A stretch of 25,733 nucleotides of DNA, taken from a virus. Every line of letters starts with the position of its first letter. Positions within the stretch are counted from its first letter, which is position 1. This document shows positions 3,001-25,733 of the stretch, piece by piece. The position numbers were made by a program, and so were the translations under genes. Location: the IMG/VR virus record IMGVR_UViG_3300003324_000061, positions 24,669 through 50,401 of that record; one strand, given 5' to 3'. The notes under the pieces were generated by a model. It saw only the letters and a program-made list of their open reading frames with translations. It had not been told where the DNA came from and searched no databases.

Positions 3001-4685
3001 GTGGCTTTTAAGGTAGCTAGTTGAGCATCAATAGCCTCTCTCTTGGCTTTAAGTTCTAAATAATAGAGACTTTTATCGTAAGTATTCGGAGCTTTCTTAA
3101 CGATCTCCGACATCTTAAATAAAAGCTCACCACTTTGCTTCTCAAGCAGTTGTATGTTGCCAGGAGTTTTTACACGGCCTTCAGACTTTACAACTTCTCC
3201 CTTTAAACCTGTATCAGAAATGAATTTCTGAGCAGCTCGTTCACTCCCGAACAAGGTGCCGTCAGTCTGTCCTAGATGTACGCCTACGAAATAAGAGTTA
3301 GTAGCAGCATCCCTAGTAGGAGTGGAGATATCAAGAATAGTGTTATCCAGCCCAGGGAATCTAGTTCGAATTTCATCTTTAATAGCCCTTATATTCTTCT
3401 CCACTGCAAACACTGCAGGGAGACGATCAACGCGCATTGTATTCTGGACGGACTCTAGGAATGCGTCTCTAACTTCGTTGTAACGCTGTTCTATTCTATT
3501 GATTAGTTCCCTGGAGGCAGGTCCATTGTTGGATTTAACAGCATCCACAGTACGATTGAAGTAGGAGGCAATGCCTTCTAATCCTCTACGTGTAGGATCT
3601 CCAGTGCCCTTCATTTCTGCGATTATATTGTCCGCAGTCTTGGTTACAGCAGCTTCAGGAATATCTCCCACAGCCTCGTGCATACCTGCACGGTCTAGCG
3701 CAGGATCCTTAGTGGCTTTGATTTGATCGGTAACAGCATTAGATACCGCTTTACTCATGTCCCGTTCAGACAAACCTTTGACTAAGGTTTTTCCTAAACC
3801 AACAATGCTCAGTGGCTTAATAAAGGTTGCATCTATAGCTGTAGTAAGACTGTTTAGATTTTCTTCGGTATAAGACTGTCCCAACATTGCCTGAACAAAC
3901 CGAAGAGCTAGTTCAGGATTATCCTTCTTAAGACGATTAGAAGTACTTAACAACCATTCCTTGTATTGAGGGAAAGGTAGACGATAAGCAGTTTTCATCT
4001 GGGCGGTAAGATTACCACCTAGTAAATCGAAGTTGAACGAATCTACGTTAGGAACATTGCCACGAAGTTTAATATCAGTATAACCAGGGATAAGCATTTT
4101 ACCCTGATCAACCACCCAGCCAACCATAGATTGTTGGCCAACCTCAGCTTCTAAGTTCTGTGCAATAGTTCTTGTAAACTCGTTCTTAGCTAAGAAGGTT
4201 GTCCCCAACATCTGAGATGCTTTGGTTATTTCAGGCTGTACCTGCATAGCCTTGGATATTTCAGAGTCAGGATTGCTCTTAGCTGCTCTATCTAAGAGAT
4301 TGGCATATTCTTGACTATAATACTCTTCGAATACAGATTTAGGATCTGTAGGTTGATTGAGACCTCTTAGCTGCGTGAATACGTATCCAGTCTCAGCCGG
4401 AGATAAGGGAGCACCCTTTCTCTTAGCCAGTTCTGAAATTATATCATAGGCACGGTTTTGCTTGACAGCTTCTAGATTAACTACAGCTTGTTGCCTGACA
4501 GCATCTTCTTGCCCTTCTTTGATACTCTGAGAAATTTGGTCAATAGTCATGCCTAGACTGTTGATCCCAAACTTAGCTTTGAACGCGCGTTGATCCGCAA
4601 CACTAGCAGGAAGCTGCGGAGTTGTGCTTATATCTGCGCTGAGCGGTTCTTGGTTTACAGGATCAGTTGTATCTATAGTAGGCAT
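1..4685 (-). CDS. Giant internal virion / DNA-ejection protein, 3' end cut by window edge
   Basis: The frame is open from the ATG at 4685 to the left edge: 1,561 codons with no stop, so the real protein is longer. The ATG overlaps the TAA of the gp14-like gene by one base (TAATG). Its place as the last late gene after adaptor, nozzle, lysis genes and a gp14-like protein matches the large ejection proteins of podoviruses (T7 gp15/gp16). The N-terminal half is charged and mostly helical. Around residues 1,160-1,200 a segment with AKLGLFNPGTFLTNL resembles the hydrophobic C-terminal part of gp16-type proteins as I remember them. Further hydrophobic, glycine-rich stretches follow near 1,420-1,490 and could insert in the host envelope. 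I see no lysozyme or transglycosylase motif and no RNA-polymerase motif. The role in genome delivery is inferred from size, position and this partial resemblance. Confidence 0.8.
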   Translation of the reverse strand, partial: MPTIDTTDPVNQEPLSADISTTPQLPASVADQRAFKAKFGINSLGMTIDQISQSIKEGQEDAVRQQAVVNLEAVKQNRAYDIISELAKRKGAPLSPAETGYVFTQLRGLNQPTDPKSVFEEYYSQEYANLLDRAAKSNPDSEISKAMQVQPEITKASQMLGTTFLAKNEFTRTIAQNLEAEVGQQSMVGWVVDQGKMLIPGYTDIKLRGNVPNVDSFNFDLLGGNLTAQMKTAYRLPFPQYKEWLLSTSNRLKKDNPELALRFVQAMLGQSYTEENLNSLTTAIDATFIKPLSIVGLGKTLVKGLSERDMSKAVSNAVTDQIKATKDPALDRAGMHEAVGDIPEAAVTKTADNIIAEMKGTGDPTRRGLEGIASYFNRTVDAVKSNNGPASRELINRIEQRYNEVRDAFLESVQNTMRVDRLPAVFAVEKNIRAIKDEIRTRFPGLDNTILDISTPTRDAATNSYFVGVHLGQTDGTLFGSERAAQKFISDTGLKGEVVKSEGRVKTPGNIQLLEKQSGELLFKMSEIVKKAPNTYDKSLYYLELKAKREAIDAQLATLKATPVQQGVGWKVVVYKPLKETDSVIRDALLATSNTKTPASWLNAWGGWLGSFRTPEETLAMEQLMNRKVATYAPSNFLKVLRQSAKEINDIKAGWFSMPDKRQRWQEWQRVISAAEKDRAATGELFQHPSQLSDLYQRVLNRMPDEQEIAAAFAYKRNSDLLDVFRNLGALRNKSRLGAETHTISIPNPYTSKYQGYLGRTQITVDGVRLHSFENLGSDTLIRIGKDINNVAVRLTDNIKNNQRKLYEKKVSEGSMVLLRITNPDELPFKDLPNVGSNVRPRYVLVDKTDTKPLQWNQVFNHPRPADYDYEHYISQAHILRDQVSKRNWYEKDNIIGAHNIGSVSRDIAKKLDDVRKFIKSGNYDEAEAANPLSTNFSEVRSWFEVGPNGQRPLLSLDEPIVSVPRNQMVGDVEGEALIVRNGGRDSFRDGTTEGYGRYIEGKRDVHQLFTAENYGTKANPLYNATPAEAIDPITSLNRGLNKVLNETFMDDYKIFSVEHWIQEAKAAGAFDVDPARLADAPYYYFFNGKFRKGVDPVVANNLETARFQIKQFLGVKDQTTTFLHHTAQVLADSLYDRGYKKLALAPAYLLPTLRDPFAFIRSFTFDAKLGLFNPGTFLTNLNTYATILGVAGFKYAAPGTRAAFTHWMTRMNQSEEVLTQLDKLMSKKIIPGTSEWRPGEWREAFNLLQQTGFGNIAGEYALRDNPAGYNILTRGVRDNILNPAAIFFTESERLVRYGAFYTAFREFRDKVPARALTEADKRTILQRADTLSVNMSRASNSKLQEGVFSLPSQFLTYQLRTAELFLGKRLSAYEKGRLFTTYAALYGIPGAFGLTGYPFADHINKWVAENTSYTPGQNFVGSAFWEGGIAAFLALGSGGNWYNVQEKYGVQGLEPIRELLRGDKTTIDLIGGASFSTLKNMLSRTLDPGWKMVQGMFGDEDRKYQPTMDNFLDIFREISSVNAAWKLYHALNTGKIYSRNENLLTENVSTNNAIFRYLSG

Positions 4686-5542: not shown

Positions 5543-5964
5543 TATTTAACTTCTTTCAAATAAGTATACTCTTGAAGTTTATAACCAAACTTCTTGTATA
5601 TTTTACCAATATCTTTGTCCATACAAGACACACTGACCATTCGACAGTTTGTCCTTGAAGCCCAGTATTCAAAAGCTTCTAACAGCTGTCGCCCGACTCC
5701 GTTCTTTCGTTTATCAGGAGCAACCCACCAAGCCAGTTCCAATGCAATATCAAATAAACCATATGGAGATGGAACCTTCCGACCAGCAAAGAAAGCGCCA
5801 TCGCCAATTAAGACGATAGCGTCTGGACTTAGTATTAAGCTTTGCAGAAGTTCAGAGATCTTGTCTTCGTCAAAATAATCTTTGAAGCGAGTTTCTTTAA
5901 TAAACTTCATGGCTAGATCTTTAACTTGATCTAAATCTTCATAGGTAGCGACTCGAATAGTCAT
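5542..5964 (-). CDS. GNAT-family N-acetyltransferase
   Basis: 140 aa, a complete small GNAT domain. It starts with the typical IRVATYEDLDQVKDLA beta1-alpha1 region. Motif A is at about residues 80-100 (WWVAPDKRKNGVGRQLLEAF), where the R-K-N-G-V-G turn binds the acetyl-CoA pyrophosphate. The C-terminal KIYKKFGYKLQEY is the usual motif B strand-helix. The substrate cannot be told. It lies between the lysis genes and the ejection proteins, overlapping its upstream neighbour by 26 nt, so it is made late with virion proteins. It might modify a virion protein, the host envelope or a host target. Such enzymes recur in late operons of podoviruses, with no settled role that I know of. Confidence 0.88.
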   Translation of the reverse strand: MTIRVATYEDLDQVKDLAMKFIKETRFKDYFDEDKISELLQSLILSPDAIVLIGDGAFFAGRKVPSPYGLFDIALELAWWVAPDKRKNGVGRQLLEAFEYWASRTNCRMVSVSCMDKDIGKIYKKFGYKLQEYTYLKEVK

Positions 5965-14643: not shown

Positions 14644-16460
14644 TAGGGTCCTTGCATCTGTGGTTGAGCTGAGTTAAGTGCTCCTAAATGTTCTAGGTCG
14701 AAATCGTTACCTATGCCAGAGGCGGTCGTGGTCTGTTGTGCGGCCTGCTCTTGCAGAGACTGAGCAAATTTCTGAGCCTCAGTCTGCTCGACTAGTTGGA
14801 TATCTTTAATTACTATTTCATAATCCTTCAGATCGAATGCTTCCTCGATAACCTTAGCCAGTTCAATACTAGAGAAGTGCCTCTGTACTGTAGGCCATAG
14901 GTTAGAGTTGGTGAGGTTAGTTAGGTTCTGAATAAGCTGTGCCTGTTCAGCGAAATGCCGGGCAGCAATCGGTTTAATACGTCCTATGCCTGTGATGTCT
15001 TCGACAGTCAGGTCTTGAAATACCGCAACATTGAAATCTGAACCAAGTACCTTGATGGTAGTTACGCCAGTCATATTGCGGCGGGCTAGTTCTAACATAG
15101 CGTTGAGAAGAGGTTCTATGATCTGCATCTCAAACTGTCTGATCTTATTTTGGAAGATGCGAGACGCTGCGTTCTCTAGAGATTGAACCTCATACTTGGT
15201 CTTTTCTCCAGGAGTACGAAAACCCATAGCTTCCCTAGGCGCACCGGGCATTTCTTCCATCAACCGTTCATAGTTGATCAGTTCATTGTTAGCTTGTAAA
15301 ACACTAACGTTAGGTTGATGTATCTCTACTTTGCCTTCCTCAGAGACATTGATCTGTTCTCCGGGCTGCCAGGTATAAGCTTCTACGAAACCACTCAGAA
15401 TTTGAACAGGGTATGTAGTGAAGTCGATAATATCCGCCTTCATGTTCTCCACATGATCTAGGCGGTATTGCATTCCCACTAGATTATTTAGAGGACCCAT
15501 TCCCCAGAGATTGTCTTGGGCTTTTCTCCATGGTGAATGATAGATTGGCGGATAGCCAAAGAAGCTTGGGTTGGGTTTCTTACCAATGAGCTTGTGCCGG
15601 TCAACCACTGTGATAACGTGGTTCTTGAGGAAGGTATCCTGAGAGGAATCATAGATATCTCCATAGAAAGTCAGAACTTCTGCATAGTCTGAACCTAGAT
15701 AGTTTCTAAAATCAGTGAAGCCTTCGATTGAGAATAGGTTATCTTTCTGAGCTAACTCTCCTGCGAAAGAAGCTACGTTAGTTCTAATGTCTTTGAGGTA
15801 GTTCCAGAGTTCTTGGTACTCTTCCCTATTCTGATCGTTAGATAGTTTTGCCAACATATCTTTTAGCTCGCCCAAGCTTATTATTGAGCGAATGATCTTG
15901 GGCGCTTGTAAGAAATTCTCTGCGGTCGGGTTCATCACAATATCCAACGGACTGATTCTGCGGATTTGTGGTCCGATGTAGCCTGTCTGGATACCAGTTC
16001 CAGTATCTACTCTGTTGTCTACCCATTCTACTGTTGCGAAGCAATTCCCGTAATCAATGTAATCTAGGATGATCTTATCCATCTCATGGGCAAAGGATGG
16101 TTGGTCAATGACCCAACCCATGTAGTTTAAGATAGCATCCCTTTTAACCTTGGAATTGGAATCTCTGTTATCTGCTTCCCAAGTCAACCATTTCCTAGAA
16201 CCAAACTCTGTGGCTGTGTAGTTAGCGTAGAGATTGTCTCTGATCTGGCAGAGCTTAGGGATAGTAGTCTTGTTCTTCCAAGGAAGCTTGGAGTTAGTGG
16301 TTTTGGAAGTATCTGTGGCAAAGACATACTTACGTATCTCTTCCATGTCGTTCTTCCAGAGTTGACGTTTGCTGTCCCATTCAATCCACTGTTCGGTGAT
16401 TGCAACAGCCAGATCATCCTTCTGGATCATATCTTCTATTACGAGAACTTTACTGGTCAC
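14643..16460 (-). CDS. Portal protein
   Basis: About 605 aa, the size of podovirus portals. Recognisable stretches are the N-terminal helices with WKNDMEEIRKYVFATDTS, a beta-rich wing part (GNCFATVEWVDNRVDTGTG), the SPWRKAQDNLWGMGPLNNL segment and the long helical stem/crown (ENAASRIFQNKIRQFEMQII), with a Gln/Ala-rich C terminus. The dodecameric ring is the DNA entry and exit gate and packs DNA together with the terminase. I place the start at GTG 16460, which overlaps the terminase TGA as GTGA and has GGTGGAG just upstream. A TTG at 16475 would add five residues but lacks a clear ribosome binding site. Confidence 0.88.
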   Translation of the reverse strand: MTSKVLVIEDMIQKDDLAVAITEQWIEWDSKRQLWKNDMEEIRKYVFATDTSKTTNSKLPWKNKTTIPKLCQIRDNLYANYTATEFGSRKWLTWEADNRDSNSKVKRDAILNYMGWVIDQPSFAHEMDKIILDYIDYGNCFATVEWVDNRVDTGTGIQTGYIGPQIRRISPLDIVMNPTAENFLQAPKIIRSIISLGELKDMLAKLSNDQNREEYQELWNYLKDIRTNVASFAGELAQKDNLFSIEGFTDFRNYLGSDYAEVLTFYGDIYDSSQDTFLKNHVITVVDRHKLIGKKPNPSFFGYPPIYHSPWRKAQDNLWGMGPLNNLVGMQYRLDHVENMKADIIDFTTYPVQILSGFVEAYTWQPGEQINVSEEGKVEIHQPNVSVLQANNELINYERLMEEMPGAPREAMGFRTPGEKTKYEVQSLENAASRIFQNKIRQFEMQIIEPLLNAMLELARRNMTGVTTIKVLGSDFNVAVFQDLTVEDITGIGRIKPIAARHFAEQAQLIQNLTNLTNSNLWPTVQRHFSSIELAKVIEEAFDLKDYEIVIKDIQLVEQTEAQKFAQSLQEQAAQQTTTASGIGNDFDLEHLGALNSAQPQMQGP

Positions 16461-18025
16461 GCCACTCCACCCCAACGATTATGATATTCAAAAGATGCCT
16501 CTGGTTTATTTATTCTATATGGACTGAAGGGCGCTACTGCGAATGAGACGGCAGATGCGAGAGCATCTTTCACGTCATCATGCGAAGGGTTGGCAAACAT
16601 CAGTTCTTCTTCTAAGACTTGACAGTTCCCACCAGGATAGTGGTACATTTGTCTGTTGTTATATTTGGGCTCCAGTGCTGCTAATATTCTTTCTTCTTTA
16701 GCTCCCTGGAACCTAGTTGGTTTAAACTCTACTATAGACAGCCCCAAGCCCAATGGCCTAATGTACGATTCTTTAAGGTCAGTAACGATCGCTTGTTGGG
16801 CTCCTGTGACTTCAGCTCTAAGCTGTCTGAAACCCCACTTCTCGTACAGTTTAAGAATACGTTTGAAATACTCTGAAGGTGCACCGGTCTTAAACCTATC
16901 TATCTCTAAGATGTAAATGTTGTTCTGATGATCCACGCCTATGACTACTATTGCGGTGAAGTCTGACTTCTTTCCGGTAGTAAATGCAAAGTCAACGCTT
17001 GCGAACACATTAAGCCGTTCACCCTTGAAGAACCATCGGCCATCTCTTCGGTATAGATGTCCAGGTTCATAATACTGGAAGGCTTCTCTCTTGAAGATTG
17101 CGTTGTCAACGTCATGTGGATCGTTGTAATATTGGGCTCGGAAATGTAATCGGTTGAGATACTGAGATCGCTTAATCGCCAAGATTTCCTGGTTAAATCC
17201 AAACCATTTTCCATCAGAACCTTGCTGACGTGGCCATAGATACTCTCCAGATCCATCCCCAACAGATTCAACTTGCCGTTCAAAGAGTTCGAAGAGTGTG
17301 TCAGATTCTTGAACGTTTCCGAGTTCATCGTATTTGTTAATCTCCATGGTCAGGAGCTGACCGTATAAGTCGTTAGGATGGTATCTAGTACCAACCACCC
17401 ATTCCTGGGCATTAACTGTTTCGATAGAAGATAAGAGACCGTATTGATCTTTTACCTTTTCTCTTCCGTCTTCTGTGTATGCGTTTCCTTGGACCACCAC
17501 GTCGTCAAGCACGGCAATATCACAGTGCATACCAACAACGTTAGTAGTAAGACCCGCAGTAAAGATCGAGGGGTCACGGATTGACCATTCCTTACGTAGG
17601 GGGTGATCTACAGAGATTTCTCTCTCAGTCCACTTCTCTCTCCTAGCTTCGTCCTTATTGACCATATCTGGCCAATACATTCGATAGCGATCTGAGGTGA
17701 GAATATCCTTAATAAACTTAAGCTGCTTTGTCGCCAGATTCGAGGTGCTTGATATAAAAAGGACACGTAACGTTGGGTCCTTTGTTAGTTCCCAAGCAAC
17801 GCGATATGCAATAAGAGCACTCTTTCCATGATCCCGCGGTAGCAGCAGAAGCTGGTGCGATTTCCGTTCTTTTCTTGCCCACCAATTAATAACCTCTCTG
17901 TGTACTGATCCTAATAATCTTTTTGGGTGTACTAACTTAATAAACTCTTCAAGAGAGGACTCTGCTAGCTTTCTACGTTCTTCTCTTTCAGGTGCTTCCT
18001 TAGGGGGTCGCCCTCTACGCGCCAT
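16457..18025 (-). CDS. terL: Terminase large subunit (DNA-packaging ATPase and nuclease)
   Basis: 522 aa. The Walker A loop is LLPRDHGKSA at residues 61-70 with K68. Walker B is IAVLDDVV with D174/D175. RNase H-like nuclease residues are visible at D345 (ASVDFAF), E405 (RAEVTG) and D483/D484 (SHDDVKDAL), the expected acidic triad. The N terminus is basic (MARRGRPPKE). It should pump DNA into the procapsid through the portal and cut the concatemer. The start overlaps the preceding small membrane-protein gene by 11 nt; the stop overlaps the portal GTG. No terminase small subunit is recognisable next to it. Confidence 0.95.
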   Translation of the reverse strand: MARRGRPPKEAPEREERRKLAESSLEEFIKLVHPKRLLGSVHREVINWWARKERKSHQLLLLPRDHGKSALIAYRVAWELTKDPTLRVLFISSTSNLATKQLKFIKDILTSDRYRMYWPDMVNKDEARREKWTEREISVDHPLRKEWSIRDPSIFTAGLTTNVVGMHCDIAVLDDVVVQGNAYTEDGREKVKDQYGLLSSIETVNAQEWVVGTRYHPNDLYGQLLTMEINKYDELGNVQESDTLFELFERQVESVGDGSGEYLWPRQQGSDGKWFGFNQEILAIKRSQYLNRLHFRAQYYNDPHDVDNAIFKREAFQYYEPGHLYRRDGRWFFKGERLNVFASVDFAFTTGKKSDFTAIVVIGVDHQNNIYILEIDRFKTGAPSEYFKRILKLYEKWGFRQLRAEVTGAQQAIVTDLKESYIRPLGLGLSIVEFKPTRFQGAKEERILAALEPKYNNRQMYHYPGGNCQVLEEELMFANPSHDDVKDALASAVSFAVAPFSPYRINKPEASFEYHNRWGGVA

Positions 18026-21890: not shown

Positions 21891-22009
21891 TTCTTTTTAA
21901 CCTTTGACTTAAAGCCATTTGTAGCGTAATATGCTATAACTTGTTTCTTAGTAAACTTCCTACCAGAAGGAGAAGTATATGTATTCTTACCAGTTTTAGT
22001 AAAAGGCAT
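21887..22009 (-). CDS. Small basic phage protein (SPSGRKFTKKQV type)
   Basis: 40 aa and very basic (12 Lys/Arg). The core YTSPSGRKFTKKQVIAYYAT followed by a lysine-rich tail (KSKVKKK) is a pattern I recall from small proteins near phage structural genes. The ATG overlaps the stop of the 19-residue ORF by one base (TAATG) and the stop overlaps the next micro-ORF. It might bind nucleic acid or act as a small virion component. Conservation of the Ser-Pro-Ser-Gly-Arg core is my reason for calling it real; function unknown. Confidence 0.55.
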   Translation of the reverse strand: MPFTKTGKNTYTSPSGRKFTKKQVIAYYATNGFKSKVKKK

Positions 22010-22068
22010 TAGTTGTTACAACTACATTTCCAGTATGGGTTCTTACAGATAGGACACTTAGTTCTCAT
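22009..22068 (-). CDS. 19-residue zinc-knuckle-like micro-ORF, first ORF of the late transcript
   Basis: The peptide is MRTKCPICKNPYWKCSCNN: CPIC, a short loop, then CSC, enough for a minimal metal-binding knuckle. It begins only about 14 nt after the expected transcription start of the late promoter, with a weak GAG as ribosome binding site, and its stop overlaps the ATG of the basic 40-residue gene. It may be a true micro-protein or a leader ORF whose translation opens the operon mRNA. The pairing of cysteines is unlikely by chance but the ORF is very short. Confidence 0.4.
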   Translation of the reverse strand: MRTKCPICKNPYWKCSCNN

Positions 22069-22088
22069 AGTATGCTCTAAAACTATAT

Positions 22089-22117
22089 ATTATATATTAT
22101 TATATATACCTTGTCAA
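22089..22117 (-). promoter_or_regulatory. Consensus sigma70 promoter of the late operon
   Basis: On the minus strand TTGACA (22117-22112) and TATAAT (22094-22089) are separated by exactly 17 bases, a perfect match to the bacterial housekeeping consensus. The spacer is AT-rich (TATATA repeats). Transcription should begin near 22,082 and run left through the whole structural operon. The -35 box lies inside an 11-bp palindrome (CCTTGACAAGG on this strand, 22109-22119), which could be an operator. Because the promoter is consensus, host RNA polymerase should be enough, and late timing would need a repressor or some other control. Confidence 0.85.
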
Positions 22118-22128
22118 GGATTATTTTA

Positions 22129-22221
22129 ATGAGTGAATGGTATTGTATTAGATGTTGGAAGTGGAATTACAAGAAACCTGTACCTAAAGGGGAGTTTTAC
22201 TGTAAAGATTGTGGAGGGTAG
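22129..22221 (+). CDS. 30-residue zinc-ribbon micro-protein
   Basis: The frame encodes 30 residues beginning MSEWYCIRCWKW and ending EFYCKDCGG, so it has two CxxC knuckles (CIRC and CKDC) about 15 residues apart, the complete ligand set of a minimal zinc ribbon. AAGGA lies eight bases before the ATG; this ribosome binding site overlaps the palindrome at the late -35 box. It reads away from the late operon. Similar in layout to the 38-residue gene downstream (both have W-Y then C-x-R-C), so they may be paralogues. A small nucleic-acid- or polymerase-binding role is possible, not shown. Confidence 0.6.
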   Translation: MSEWYCIRCWKWNYKKPVPKGEFYCKDCGG

Positions 22222-22277
22222 ATCTGATATAGAATGCCCCGTAATCGCCCATAAATGGCCGCTGGTGCGTTTTTATA

Positions 22278-22299
22278 TATACCCCTGTAGGGTGGTATA
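22278..22299. other. Imperfect hairpin between the two micro zinc-ribbon genes
   Basis: TATACC and GGTATA pair as an outer 6-bp stem, with an inner CC/GG pair around a TGTA loop and a two-base bulge. It follows a short T run (GTTTTTATATAT) and precedes a run of six A. It has no U tract on the plus strand, so it is not a standard terminator; on the minus strand a short T run (TTTTTTCTG) lies upstream of it, not downstream. It could be an operator or an mRNA structure in the leader of the 38-residue gene. Confidence 0.35.
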
Positions 22300-22337
22300 G
22301 GTCAGAAAAAAGAAATTCAAGAAATAGGTGAAAATAG

Positions 22338-22454
22338 ATGTTTGAAGCATGGTATTGGTGTTGGAGATGTAATGATGGATTTTGGGCACCTATAGGTCTA
22401 ACTAGCCCAGATTGTCCTATTTGTTTAGATAATGATGAAGTTCAAGAAGAATGA
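22338..22454 (+). CDS. 38-residue zinc-ribbon micro-protein
   Basis: 38 residues beginning MFEAWYWCWRCNDGFW and ending CPICLDNDEVQEE. The CWRC and CPIC knuckles are 14 residues apart, again a complete minimal zinc ribbon, with an unusual number of tryptophans (four) and an acidic tail. AGGTG lies seven bases before the ATG. Same strand and same layout as the 30-residue gene 116 bp upstream. Two independent short frames with matched CxxC pairs, each with a ribosome binding site, argue that both are real genes. Function unknown. Confidence 0.6.
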   Translation: MFEAWYWCWRCNDGFWAPIGLTSPDCPICLDNDEVQEE

Positions 22455-22481
22455 ACAAGTAGAGGAGGAATAATAAAACAT

Positions 22482-22511
22482 ATGAGATATTTTGTAGGAG
22501 CAGGTACTTGA
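22482..22511 (+). other. Nine-codon ORF behind a near-ideal ribosome binding site
   Basis: AGGAGG at 22463-22468 precedes ATG 22482 by 13 bases, a little far, and the frame reads MRYFVGAGT then TGA. A related stretch 35 bp downstream (AGATATTT, then AGGAGCA) would encode VRYFSGA in another frame and continues open for about 30 codons without a good start. It could be a leader peptide, a gene remnant after a small duplication and deletion, or chance. Confidence 0.25.
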
Positions 22512-22677
22512 TTATAGTTAGATATTTCTCAGGAGCACTCGCCTGCGGCTCGCCAGAAGTCAACCCCCCAACCCCCGGTTGTACCCGGTTGTGCCCTAGG
22601 AATCTTTTGCTAGGAAAGCATGCTTATGAATAATATCCTTCTCCAGGAACCGATGACTCGTAGGATTCTATCCCTCT

Positions 22678-22900
22678 CTTAAGTATACTTAGGTATCTTA
22701 TCCTTACTTAAGTATGTTTACATAGTTGACTTAAGGAAATGCATATACTCCTAAGGTAGTAAGTAATACTTAGGATAGGCATATGAATACTATGTGATAT
22801 CCCTTAGGATCATAAGCATACCTTAGGTATATCTTAAGATAAGAATAAATCATAATACATTCAATTACTTAGTATCTTAAGATAATCTTAGGTCCTTAAG
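22678..22900. repeat. Array of thirteen CTTARG-type sites, candidate origin iterons or regulator binding sites
   Basis: Six CTTAAG, five CTTAGG, one CCTAAGG (the reverse form) and one CTTAGT occur in 223 bp, starting at 22678, 22688, 22707, 22730, 22750, 22769, 22803, 22822, 22833, 22868, 22876, 22887 and 22895. Most spacings are 8-11, 19-23 or 34-35 bases, that is, near one, two or three turns of the DNA helix. Two sites together form the palindrome TAAGTATACTTA, and ATCTTAAGAT occurs twice. The stretch is AT-rich and codes for nothing. Dense helically phased repeats are typical of initiator-binding iterons and of arrays for a cooperative regulator. Confidence 0.75.
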
Positions 22901-22971
22901 CCCTTGATATATCTAATCTTTATTCTGATCTTATTTCGTTCTATTCCAAGGCTTAGAGCCGGTAAACCACC

Positions 22972-22998
22972 TGTGAGAGTGTATCACAGACTTGTGAT
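22972..22998. promoter_or_regulatory. Operator-like TGTGA/TCACA half-sites
   Basis: Three alternating half-sites stand in a row: TGTGA (22972-22976), TCACA within ATCACA (22983-22988) and TGTGA within TGTGAT (22993-22998). The last two make a perfect inverted repeat, ATCACA-GACT-TGTGAT. The first two look like a CRP site but with seven instead of six bases between the arms. The inverted repeat covers the -35 box of the candidate rightward promoter, as a repressor operator would. Confidence 0.5.
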
Positions 22999-23020
22999 TA
23001 GACTTCGGATGGTCTATGGT
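22992..23020 (+). promoter_or_regulatory. Candidate rightward promoter for the small-gene operon
   Basis: TTGTGA (22992-22997) and TATGGT (23015-23020) are separated by 17 bases; each box matches four of six consensus bases. Transcription would begin near 23,027, about 37 nt before the first small gene. The -35 box is inside an inverted repeat. No better plus-strand pair was seen between 22,900 and 23,060, but the match is modest. Confidence 0.35.
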
Positions 23021-23063
23021 GTTGTTAGGACGTTGGGCATGAAGCCCGATGGGAGCGAGCACA

Positions 23064-23231
23064 ATGATTGTGGGTAAGACTATCAAGGACGTGCAGTTAG
23101 GGGCAGAACACATCTCGCTCCTATTCACTGATAATACAATCTTGATTGTCTCTAAGGACAAGGCTGGAGAGTTCTTAGCCGTTGTCTACGGGCAAGGTAT
23201 CGTGCAACTCAAGCGCAACGTAGTGGAGTGA
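23064..23231 (+). CDS. Small protein of unknown function, first of the rightward group
   Basis: 55 aa, mainly beta strands with alternating hydrophobics (KTIKDVQLGAEHISLLFTDN, then TILIVSKDKAGEFLAVVYG). I use the ATG at 23064, not the in-frame ATG at 23049, because GGGAG lies nine bases upstream of it and the surrounding text (GGGAGCGAGCACAATG) is the same cassette used by two genes downstream. The stop is five bases before the next ATG. No family recognised. Confidence 0.6.
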   Translation: MIVGKTIKDVQLGAEHISLLFTDNTILIVSKDKAGEFLAVVYGQGIVQLKRNVVE

Positions 23232-23236
23232 ACACA

Positions 23237-23413
23237 ATGCCTACCACTAACCTAGTCCTACGTATCGCTTTGTGGATGCTGCAACGAGGCGACACTGATC
23301 GTGCATACAATGCGTTAGGCCATGCGTTGCGTATGGCTAACCGCAATGGTGAGCATAGGTGCAAAGGGAATATCCTCCGAGCTATGGCTTGTGTTCGTCG
23401 AATACCAAGATAG
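23237..23413 (+). CDS. Small helical basic protein of unknown function
   Basis: 58 aa, probably two or three helices (LVLRIALWMLQRGDTDRAY, then ALGHALRMANRNGEHRCKGN) with many arginines, and no membrane segment of full length. The paired helices with a D-x-x-R-A-Y-x-A-L-G spacing resemble one TPR-like hairpin, though too short to claim. Start chosen at ATG 23237 because GGAG lies eight bases upstream in the shared GGAGTGAACACAATG cassette; a GTG at 23228 is too close to that site. Function unknown. Confidence 0.58.
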   Translation: MPTTNLVLRIALWMLQRGDTDRAYNALGHALRMANRNGEHRCKGNILRAMACVRRIPR

Positions 23414-23424
23414 GAGTGGGCACA

Positions 23425-23631
23425 ATGAAAATCGTTATCAAAGACGTGGTTTGCCCTAACTGCGGTGCAAAGGAAATGCACCCTAACGGCAAACTGCTAT
23501 TGATACGGGCATTCAAAGTTCACATGAATGGCCGCTGGCAATCCCAGTGTCTCGTATGCGCCGGTTACTATGACAAAGACCTAAACCCTATTCCCAATGC
23601 TAAGGGTACGGGTGGATGGTTTGCATCATGA
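23425..23631 (+). CDS. Zinc-ribbon protein, 68 aa
   Basis: 68 aa. The first knuckle is CPNCGAKE near residue 10 and the second is CLVCAGYYD near residue 42, giving a standard four-cysteine zinc ribbon with a beta-rich loop between them (GKLLLIRAFKVHMNGRWQSQ). Such domains bind nucleic acid or a partner protein; the partner is unknown. The start at 23425 has GGAG nine bases upstream in the same cassette as its neighbours; an upstream in-frame ATG at 23359 lies inside the previous gene. Its TGA overlaps the ATG of the next small gene (ATGA). Confidence 0.68.
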   Translation: MKIVIKDVVCPNCGAKEMHPNGKLLLIRAFKVHMNGRWQSQCLVCAGYYDKDLNPIPNAKGTGGWFAS

Positions 23632-23714
23632 CTACAACCCTAGTCATCCTAGCCGTTGTCTCGGCTATAGCGTTGCTATGGTTCGGGTCTGACCTCTGGA
23701 GAGAATGCCAATGA
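23628..23714 (+). CDS. 28-residue single-span membrane peptide
   Basis: The ATG overlaps the previous TGA by four bases (ATGA), and the stop TGA overlaps the next ATG the same way. The peptide is MTTTLVILAVVSAIALLWFG followed by SDLWRECQ: one hydrophobic helix of about 17 residues with a short polar tail. Coupling on both sides and the clean membrane-helix composition suggest a real gene, perhaps an inner-membrane micro-protein acting on the host; function unknown. Confidence 0.5.
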   Translation: MTTTLVILAVVSAIALLWFGSDLWRECQ

Positions 23715-24001
23715 AGGAATATCGTAAGCTACTGGACAAGCTAGGCGCACCTAGGCGCTATGCTGTGGCACTAGGCGACAATCCAAGACGTTTAGTCATC
23801 ATGCCTAAGCCGGGTGGCGCTTCCGCCGCACGCTATGCTTTAGGTTTGTCTCCGCCACACTACCCTGTGCCTGCACTACGCATGGAACCGGCGATAATCA
23901 GGGATGAGACGAGAGTGTTGTTCGTGGTTATTGCTGACATAACCGCAGACTACACTTGCGTTATCGGGTGTCCTGACTTGGTAATAGACTGGCGGAATTG
24001 A
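23711..24001 (+). CDS. Protein of unknown function, 96 aa
   Basis: 96 aa, alpha then beta. The N terminus is basic and helical (MKEYRKLLDKLGAPRRYAVA), followed by a proline-rich middle (LGLSPPHYPVPALRMEPAII) and hydrophobic strands (RVLFVVIADITADYTCVIG). I take the ATG at 23711, which overlaps the stop of the membrane peptide (ATGA) and has GGAGAG at a good distance, over the ATG at 23705, which is only three bases from GGAG. No family recognised. It is followed by 100 bp with no clear gene. Confidence 0.6.
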   Translation: MKEYRKLLDKLGAPRRYAVALGDNPRRLVIMPKPGGASAARYALGLSPPHYPVPALRMEPAIIRDETRVLFVVIADITADYTCVIGCPDLVIDWRN

Positions 24002-24101
24002 TTGCACTACATGCGTCACGACTTGCCAGCGATGACAGGACGCGGCGCATATGGGGCAATCAACCGGCCTAATGCCCAAGGCCATATAGGAGTAGTGAGC
24101 T

Positions 24102-25631
24102 ATGGCTACCAAGTTGAAAGAGACTGGCAACCGGGGTGGCAAGGCAATGCGCGACGGCAAAGCCTTTACATGGGTTGTGTCTGAGGCACTCGCCGGGTTC
24201 AACAAGGGCGACACGTTGTCCCTTGATCGGCAACTCGTCGATTACGGTAAGGCCATGATGGACGAGTTCAGTGAGCTGGATTTTTCCCTTACCGACGCTG
24301 AAATCTTGCAGACGTTCAAGAGCGTCAACACTGAGGGGCTTGAGCCGCAGCAGGCCGACGAAGTTGTTTTGAAGGCGCTTGAAGATATGCAAGAGGCCAA
24401 GGAGACGCCCCTTGCAGACGAACGGACCATCGAGCAAATCATTGCCAATGATCCTTCGGGCATGTTGGCCACGGCACAGAAACTTGGCGAAAAAGTTGAC
24501 GCTGCCTTCGATAACGTGGTCAACGTCGCCATTGATGGCAAGAAAGACTGGGACGGCGCGCCCTTGGCTTTGCTGCCCCACCTGGAACGGCTCTATACGC
24601 CGGATCAACTTTCCGCGTTGCCTATCGTGGGGACACGGAAACAAGGCAAGAAAAACAAAAAGGGCCAGAGTACGGACAATGTGCCTGAGGGGTACAATCA
24701 ACCGACCGACCATTTCGCAATGGAGGTAGAAGGCGAGACTAAGTATTTCAGTTTCGTCAAGACGTGGATTGATAACATGCCGCACGTCAAACAAATGATG
24801 GCACGAAAGAAGACCATCAAGATGGTCATCGACAATGACGAAGGGCTTAGCAAGTTGGCTATTCCCGACGACATTGCAAAATACATGGCGGAAAATCGCG
24901 AGGACGGCGTGAAGCAAACCCATATCCTTGACGGGTTGCTTCGCGATGCTACCGCCGATGTCACCAATTATCACACACGTTGTAGTCGTGCTCTCGCGTG
25001 CTGGCAGATGCGCCACAGGATCGAGACTGAGTTTAAGGACAATATCGAAGTCTCATTCATGGACGGTAGTCCGCAGGCTTCCGCCCGGCGCAACCGACCA
25101 ATCATTCTTGAAGGTCGGTCAGTCACGGAAGAAAACGGAAAGACCAAGGAACGTTGGATACCTCAAAAGCCGATCTCCCTTACCAAGTTTCTTGGCCTCA
25201 AACTGGACAAGGCCAAGCAACTTGCGGGCAACGCCAAGGGCGGCGTTACGCTGGCGCACATCAACAAGGCTAGTGAACGTGGTACCAAGAAAACCACGCC
25301 AACGCCGAACCAGCAAGGCGCCAGCGTTGCCCTGAACATCACCAATGTTCCCTTGTTCGGGGATGTGCTGGCCAGTGTTCAGACGTTCATTGATGCCAAT
25401 GACGCGAGCATCAAGCACGCATTGGCCGGACCAGAAGGCGGGTTGATTGCCTCTCGTATCCGGTTTGCCTACGATCTCTTGAGCCGGTATGCCGAGGACA
25501 AGGCGGTCATCATGCGAGCGGAAGCGTATGACACTGAGCAAATGGCGTCGCGTGCCGCTGCCGACGCTGCCAAGGCTGCCGCTACTAAGGCGGAACAGAA
25601 GGCCAAGGAACAATTGGCCAAGGCGAGCTAA
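24102..25631 (+). CDS. 509-aa protein of unknown function with elevated GC
   Basis: AGGAG stands nine bases before the ATG. The protein is acidic in its first half with helical stretches (LEPQQADEVVLKALEDMQEA), has a lysine-rich bridge near residues 185-195 (RKQGKKNKKGQ), a middle part with MPHVKQMMARKKTIKMVIDN, and a long Ala/Lys/Glu helix at the C terminus (AAADAAKAAATKAEQKAKEQ). There is no signal peptide, membrane helix or catalytic motif that I recognise. Its GC and C-ending codons are clearly higher than in the late genes except those of the capsid, which suggests either strong expression or a different origin. A strong terminator follows directly. I do not know its function; a nucleic-acid-binding or abundant early protein is conceivable. 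Confidence 0.75.
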   Translation: MATKLKETGNRGGKAMRDGKAFTWVVSEALAGFNKGDTLSLDRQLVDYGKAMMDEFSELDFSLTDAEILQTFKSVNTEGLEPQQADEVVLKALEDMQEAKETPLADERTIEQIIANDPSGMLATAQKLGEKVDAAFDNVVNVAIDGKKDWDGAPLALLPHLERLYTPDQLSALPIVGTRKQGKKNKKGQSTDNVPEGYNQPTDHFAMEVEGETKYFSFVKTWIDNMPHVKQMMARKKTIKMVIDNDEGLSKLAIPDDIAKYMAENREDGVKQTHILDGLLRDATADVTNYHTRCSRALACWQMRHRIETEFKDNIEVSFMDGSPQASARRNRPIILEGRSVTEENGKTKERWIPQKPISLTKFLGLKLDKAKQLAGNAKGGVTLAHINKASERGTKKTTPTPNQQGASVALNITNVPLFGDVLASVQTFIDANDASIKHALAGPEGGLIASRIRFAYDLLSRYAEDKAVIMRAEAYDTEQMASRAAADAAKAAATKAEQKAKEQLAKAS

Positions 25632-25660
25632 CACCTACCATCTTTCCCACTACCCTTTGC

Positions 25661-25693
25661 CCCTGGACCGAAAGGTCCGGGGGTATTTTTTTT
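25661..25693 (+). terminator. Strong intrinsic terminator
   Basis: CCCTGGACC and GGTCCGGGG form a 9-bp stem with one T-G pair, closed by the very stable GAAA tetraloop and followed by TA and eight T. It ends the transcript of the 509-aa gene, 30 bp after its stop. A possible next start, ATG at 25714 (GCG AAC AGA follows), lies about 20 bp beyond, but only six codons are in the window. Confidence 0.93.
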
Positions 25694-25733
25694 GTCTATA
25701 TCACAGCGGACATATGGCGAACAGATTAAGGCA

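Follow-up and report, generated by a model that had tools for sequence, protein, structure and literature searches.

Short repeat arrays flanking the terminal repeat of bacteriophage T7 were described decades ago. Their names, SRL and SRR, and their history reportedly go back to Dunn and Studier in 1983. To our knowledge, the role of these arrays is still unsettled, and a literature search found no open text on SRL/SRR function. Positions 1-400 of T7 contain 11 CCTAAA/CTAAAG words, a count as high as this being found in none of 500 shuffles. The words fall inside the terminal repeat and from ~176 to ~350, and the right end of the genome carries CCTAAGGTATACC and related copies. T3 has a terminal array similar to that of T7, and the arrays of T3 and of phage VpV262 are located just inside or within the left terminal repeat.

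Direct terminal repeats (DTRs) are also documented in the Zobellviridae and Cobavirinae. Cobavirus DTRs of 159-173 bp have been established by long reads; they have a conserved G+C-rich 5′ end and T7-like packaging has been proposed (PMC6775973). The strings 'palindrom' and 'intergenic' are absent from the text of that paper. Packaging has also been judged T7-like in the Zobellviridae phage Klyazma (PMC9960094). According to their records, the DTRs of ICBM1 (172 bp), VpV262 (138 bp) and RIO-1 (121 bp) lie between the late and early arms.

A cobavirus-like phage and its predicted genome end

The DNA analysed here, referred to as the window, comprises 25,733 nucleotides and corresponds to positions 24,669-50,401 of a 50,767-bp viral contig (G000). 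By its genes, the window phage, of 50.8 kb, belongs with the Zobellviridae/cobavirus-like podoviruses and has a terminase of the T7 type. The terminase large subunit scores above the family cut-off of PF17289 and matches PF22530, the T7 RNase H-like domain, with an E-value of 8e-6 that is 0.5 bit under the curated cut-off. The leftward arm comprises the genes for terminase, portal, scaffold, capsid, tail tubular and internal virion proteins, those without a family match being named by gene order against the records of relatives. Terminase, portal, scaffold, capsid, tail and GNAT genes follow one another as in other members of the family, and the early arm encodes a Toprim/DnaB primase-helicase and a family-A DNA polymerase (PolA). 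A protein resembling uracil-DNA glycosylase is encoded between helicase and DNA polymerase (L002:9272-9997), and the relative G005 seemingly also has such a protein. Early genes (+) occupy 1-19.2 kb of the contig and late genes (-) 19.4-46.7 kb, with the divergent region and further early genes after them; this arrangement, in which the early and late arms converge and the termini diverge, is of the Zobellviridae type. By this early-late-divergent-early layout the contig is a near-complete genome whose break falls within the early arm and which contains the divergent junction a single time.

A blastn search of 22000-25733 against phage records gave no match, and a 509-aa rightward protein has no relatives among the viral contigs searched. 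The 118-aa first late protein has a single syntenic relative (on the L025 contig), its other matches coming from unrelated phages. In the interval from the late promoter to the terminus element there are two tiny ORFs (22129-22221 and 22339-22455, both +; 30 and 38 aa), both of which contain CxxC...CxxC pairs, like small zinc ribbons. The first three early genes (23050-23427) have a common leader, GAGYGRRCACAATG, containing their start codons.

A conserved element of the form AGATATTT...AGGWGYA...CCCCCCNACCCCC is found ~140 bp to the left of the repeat array considered below. In a 22-row alignment, the element of the relatives and window positions 22520-22576 correspond to the sequence at the known DTR starts of VpV262, RIO-1 and ICBM1, and because these starts align near 22539 a genome end of the window phage is predicted there (Table 1). 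The array would thus extend from about +140 to +360 of this end. The metagenomic contig contains one copy of the junction, and the DTR is a predicted one. The contig ends of near-complete relatives, read for DTR edges, gave no boundary because three of them are circular assemblies. In Klyazma the DTR edge is ~50 bp from its G-run. Second copies of the terminus element are also found in the relatives L070, L080 and L093.

Table 1. Features of the junction region and terminase gene (window coordinates)
Feature	Position	Strand	Remarks
Terminase large subunit, T7-type RNase H domain	16457..18025	-	61.9% identical to cobavirus terminases (Celeribacter P12053L and Lentibacter ICBM1)
Predicted perfect sigma-70-type promoter TTGACA-17-TATAAT into the late (leftward) operon	22089..22117	-	12/12 matches
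Second, partial terminus-element copy AGATATTTTGTAGGAGCA	22485..22502	+	35 bp left of main copy, 83% identical
Main terminus element AGATATTTCTCAGGAGCAC	22520..22538	+	Homologous to sequence just outside the DTR in VpV262, RIO-1 and ICBM1
Predicted DTR left end	22539..22540	.	About ±3 bp; from aligned DTR starts of VpV262, RIO-1 and ICBM1
Paired C-tracts CCCCCCAACCCCC (GGGGGTTGGGGGG in terminase orientation)	22564..22576	+	Conserved 5′ part of DTR
Palindromic array, 13 sites, core C(C/T)TA(A/G)G	22678..22900	.	Extended consensus ~ATACCTTAGGTAT
Exact site starts	22678, 22688, 22707, 22730, 22750, 22769		22750 as CCTAAG
Further exact site starts	22803, 22822, 22833, 22876, 22887, 22895		
One-mismatch site CTTAGT	22868		13th array member
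Two adjacent near-perfect sites, ATACCTTAGGTAT and TATCTTAAGATA	22822..22838	.	11 bp core-to-core
Exact 13-bp repeat TATCTTAAGATAA	22873..22885, also 22830-22842	.	Copies 43 bp apart
First rightward (early-side) gene past array, short ORF	23064..23231	+	

Density, palindromy and phasing of the sites

A preliminary description of this DNA reported thirteen copies of CTTAAG/CTTAGG or close variants within 223 bp of non-coding, AT-rich sequence. Recounting on either strand gives 12 exact C(C/T)TA(A/G)G sites and one near-match in this segment, which has ~37% G+C and no convincing ORF, in agreement with that description. The expectation of one site in about 4 kb given there is right for a single 6-mer and too low for the degenerate set, which occurs about once per 0.8 kb in the genome overall. 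The count along the genome that it proposed sets the array clearly apart: 12 sites in 223 bp amount to 54 per kb, ~45 times the density of the other 50.5 kb of the contig (61 sites, 1.2 per kb), with a Poisson P(>=12) of 2e-16. Compositional or chance clustering might be suspected in a region that is AT-rich and non-coding, and its probability is negligible, being refuted by dinucleotide shuffles of the segment (mean 0.64 sites and never more than 5 in 2000 shuffles, versus 12 observed) and by the self-similarity of the array, which none of the 164 other 300-bp tiles of the window attains.

The sites are palindromes, the fullest being ATACCTTAGGTAT and TATCTTAAGATA, a feature not stressed in the preliminary description. 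Successive spacings are 10, 19, 23, 20, 19, 34, 19, 11, 35, 8, 11 and 8 bp. The helical phasing noticed earlier is real but modest: a period of 10.5 bp gives a Rayleigh R of 0.71 (p=0.003), and the best period, 10.45, gives 0.73, with p=0.03 when the period is left free. Folded as a single strand, the array is more stable than its shuffles (z -3.7), and a search of Rfam returned no match. A cluster of CTTAGC/CTAAGA words at 4182-4432 was set aside as it lies inside a coding gene.

Arrays beside the terminus element in relatives

Relatives were found by a terminase-profile search of viral contigs; in ~20 of them GGGGGTCGGGGGG, read in terminase orientation, precedes ...TGAATTACACCTMAAAAATATCTCGSNNGAAATTTTT. 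Exact 6-mer counts alone do not reach significance in many relatives. As the words drift, the exact word of the window undercounts conservation, and self-similarity together with word discovery, the latter with the window phage left out, was used instead. Self-similarity was assessed at the element-bearing loci of 20 relatives and of the window phage, 21 in all, by comparing the early-side 300 bp with the rest of the locus, using an equal number of offsets per comparison. The 300 bp beside the element are the most self-similar stretch in about 10 of the 21 loci and the second in 5, giving a Fisher combined P of 3.5e-10 (window phage included, matched offsets) in a comparison whose tiles are largely coding and whose loci are mutually related.

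For word enrichment the window phage was left out and L080 added, again giving 21 loci. AGGTAT occurs 35 times in these arrays versus 6.3 expected (18 of 21 loci), CCTAAG 26 versus 4.2 (15 loci), CTTAAG 16 versus 2.6, CGTTAG 17 versus 2.2 and ACCTTA 24 versus 5.2, the first three being within the top four enriched 6-mers. The pattern C[CT]TA[AG]G is found 49 times versus 8.5 expected, or 7.2 per kb versus 0.98 per kb elsewhere in the same loci. Because this pattern and related words are enriched in the relatives' arrays, a word close to ATACCTWAGGTAT is family-wide. Some phages have rewritten it, with CCTAGG in L061, TACGTA in L080, GGAACC in L057 and CAATCA in L078. The conservation in relatives that the preliminary description proposed to check is found as arrays kept by position beside the terminus element, with a word that is partly kept. 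An EM motif trained on the relatives became degenerate, centred on TA, and serves as a hint only; at score 7 this degenerate motif is ~8-fold denser at T7/T3 ends than in their interiors.

The strength of the arrays varies. They are weak in L058, L064, L017 and RIO-1, the terminal region of ICBM1 is not significant, and ICBM1 and RIO-1 use other words. Klyazma, with its Sanger-verified 711-bp DTR, has no array by the same self-similarity measure. In VpV262 an array of ACTGGT words follows just inside the left DTR, its count being reached by none of 198 other tiles. L101 and CRP-5 have related sites on the late side of the element.

Several other features were seen in the relatives. Palindrome arrays of the ACTTAAGT type occur within or at the start of the late region in L010 (815-910), L091 (505-620) and L101 (1960-2110), where they adjoin the first late genes. 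In L074 (630-870) a further set of repeats (ATTCGG, TCAGCA) separates the palindrome array from the G-run. At the start of G001 (L132:60-120) a near-consensus rightward promoter, TTGACA-17-TACAAT, lies just past the array on the early side; no such early-side match is found in the window phage. L029 (6240-6520) contains ~17 near-identical 15-bp units (GGCACCACTCAGGTT) of the type encoding a pentapeptide-repeat protein.

A proposed genome-terminus array and competing readings

The array is best explained, with a probability of roughly 0.55, as a cis-acting element of the genome end of a DTR podovirus and the counterpart of the CCTAAAG (SRL) array of T7. This reading draws on the density and palindromy of the sites, their place by a DTR-type element, and the recurrence of arrays with a partly conserved word in relatives. 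Since the relatives and T7 have arrays at the same place, it is probably a docking strip for cutting and packaging the viral DNA and not an origin. Position and likeness point to a role in concatemer processing or packaging. During infection the genome would be present as a head-to-tail concatemer, and a phage DNA-binding protein, either the terminase small subunit or another partner, would load cooperatively on the palindromes, mostly on one helical face. By marking the concatemer junction, the loaded array would direct the T7-type terminase to cut at the neighbouring element and to start packaging or duplicate the terminal repeat.

A search for a small terminase in the genome of the window phage with the first late protein of L101 gave no match. 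PF11123 (T7 gp18 family) also has no match there, a search that is uninformative because none of the control genomes has one either. HTH_39 gave a sub-threshold match only, in a membrane-like 90-aa protein. The gene of the L101 protein itself (L101:2170-2664; 164 aa, phrog_8035) adjoins a palindrome array, and the tail of the protein reads RGRPSKEEV; it was suspected to be a small terminase, an assignment that no family supports. That these searches identified neither a binding protein nor a small terminase in the window phage counts against the proposed reading, as do the weak or missing arrays of some relatives and the late-side sites of L101 and CRP-5.

The protein-binding type of array that the preliminary description saw in the late/early divergent region is supported, but neither of the two functions that it proposed, a binding array for a master regulator or an iteron origin, is favoured. 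In the former, a phage regulator coating the palindromes would repress the divergent promoters, early and late, or switch them. Palindromic sites are of the type bound by dimeric regulators, many dyad-site copies in or near a control region are also typical of phage repressor multi-operator arrays, the divergent region has a predicted late promoter with a perfect match, and L101, CRP-5 and ICBM2 have similar sites downstream of consensus promoters on the late side. However, the late promoter of the window phage is ~560 bp from the array and has no sites on it, all above-chance copies being in one 223-bp block. No regulon is visible, as sites scoring at least the array median number 6 elsewhere in the genome versus 5.9 expected, and no repressor or lysogeny genes were recognised among the genes inspected. 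The arrays moreover track the terminus element across relatives, and regulation of this kind is considered rather unlikely. Iterons bound by a phage initiator are an improbable explanation, even though the sites are short, repeated, spaced near the helical turn and set in AT-rich DNA as in iteron origins. Here they are 6-13-bp palindromes, not long direct repeats, and their location is tied to the predicted genome end. The phage has PolA and a primase-helicase of the T7 type, and a scan of 10 early proteins revealed no initiator. In T3 the annotated primary origin (5682-5758) is far from the terminal array. The GC-skew check suggested earlier does show a nearby minimum, near 46.5 kb of G000 (window ~21.8 kb), but gene orientation changes at the same point, and the minimum therefore does not discriminate.

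The array might also act with no dedicated protein, through phased flexible TA steps that wrap or bend the DNA or through hairpins formed on a single strand during duplication of the repeat. The motif model fitted on relatives comes down to a pattern symmetric about a TA step (SNTANS, 244 versus 110 expected), their pooled 10.5-bp periodicity reaches ~4 sd by a naive estimate, and the single-stranded fold noted above fits hairpins. Against this stand the conservation of AGGTAT and CCTAAG beyond the TA step, the T7 word, which is not palindromic, and the arrays of VpV262 (ACTGGT) and L078 (CAATCA), which have no TA step. This structural alternative accounts less well for the conserved flanking letters and is judged quite improbable.

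Known systems and the proposed terminus array

Arrays with a T7-related word and an adjacent cleavage-type element, present across a large group of uncultured podoviruses, make it possible to study by comparison how terminases of the T7 type locate genome ends. They also provide a practical marker to orient and end metagenomic genomes of Zobellviridae. One may speculate, tentatively, that phages with T7-type terminases generally use terminal arrays as an 'address label', in which an ancient CCTWAGG-like word and a co-diverging reader protein would let each phage cut and package its own concatemers only. The word would have been kept in T7, T3 and many uncultured Zobellviridae and rewritten in some lineages.

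In terminase, gene order and late/early divergent region, the latter with a conserved G+C-rich DTR start and the AAATATT element, the window phage agrees with the Zobellviridae/Cobavirinae termini of ICBM1-3, VpV262 and RIO-1. It differs from them in its array; the arrays of ICBM1 and RIO-1 are weak and of other words, and that of VpV262 is built on ACTGGT. In contrast to T7 and T3, its sites are palindromic and mostly CTTAAG/CTTAGG, its array is on one side only (none is found to the left of the terminus element in 22100-22520), its DTR is predicted rather than measured, and it has convergent early and late arms and no recognised T7-type RNA polymerase gene. Like the SRL/SRR arrays of T7 and T3, it consists of dense short repeats at a similar distance from the end, and its CCTAAGG/CTTAAGG resembles the CCTAAAG of T7 and the CCTAAGGTAT of the T7 right array. 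A C-tract near the DTR start is also common to both. The window phage thus combines a dense one-word array beside a predicted genome end with a CCTAAAG-related word and a T7-type terminase, as in SRL/SRR-like systems.
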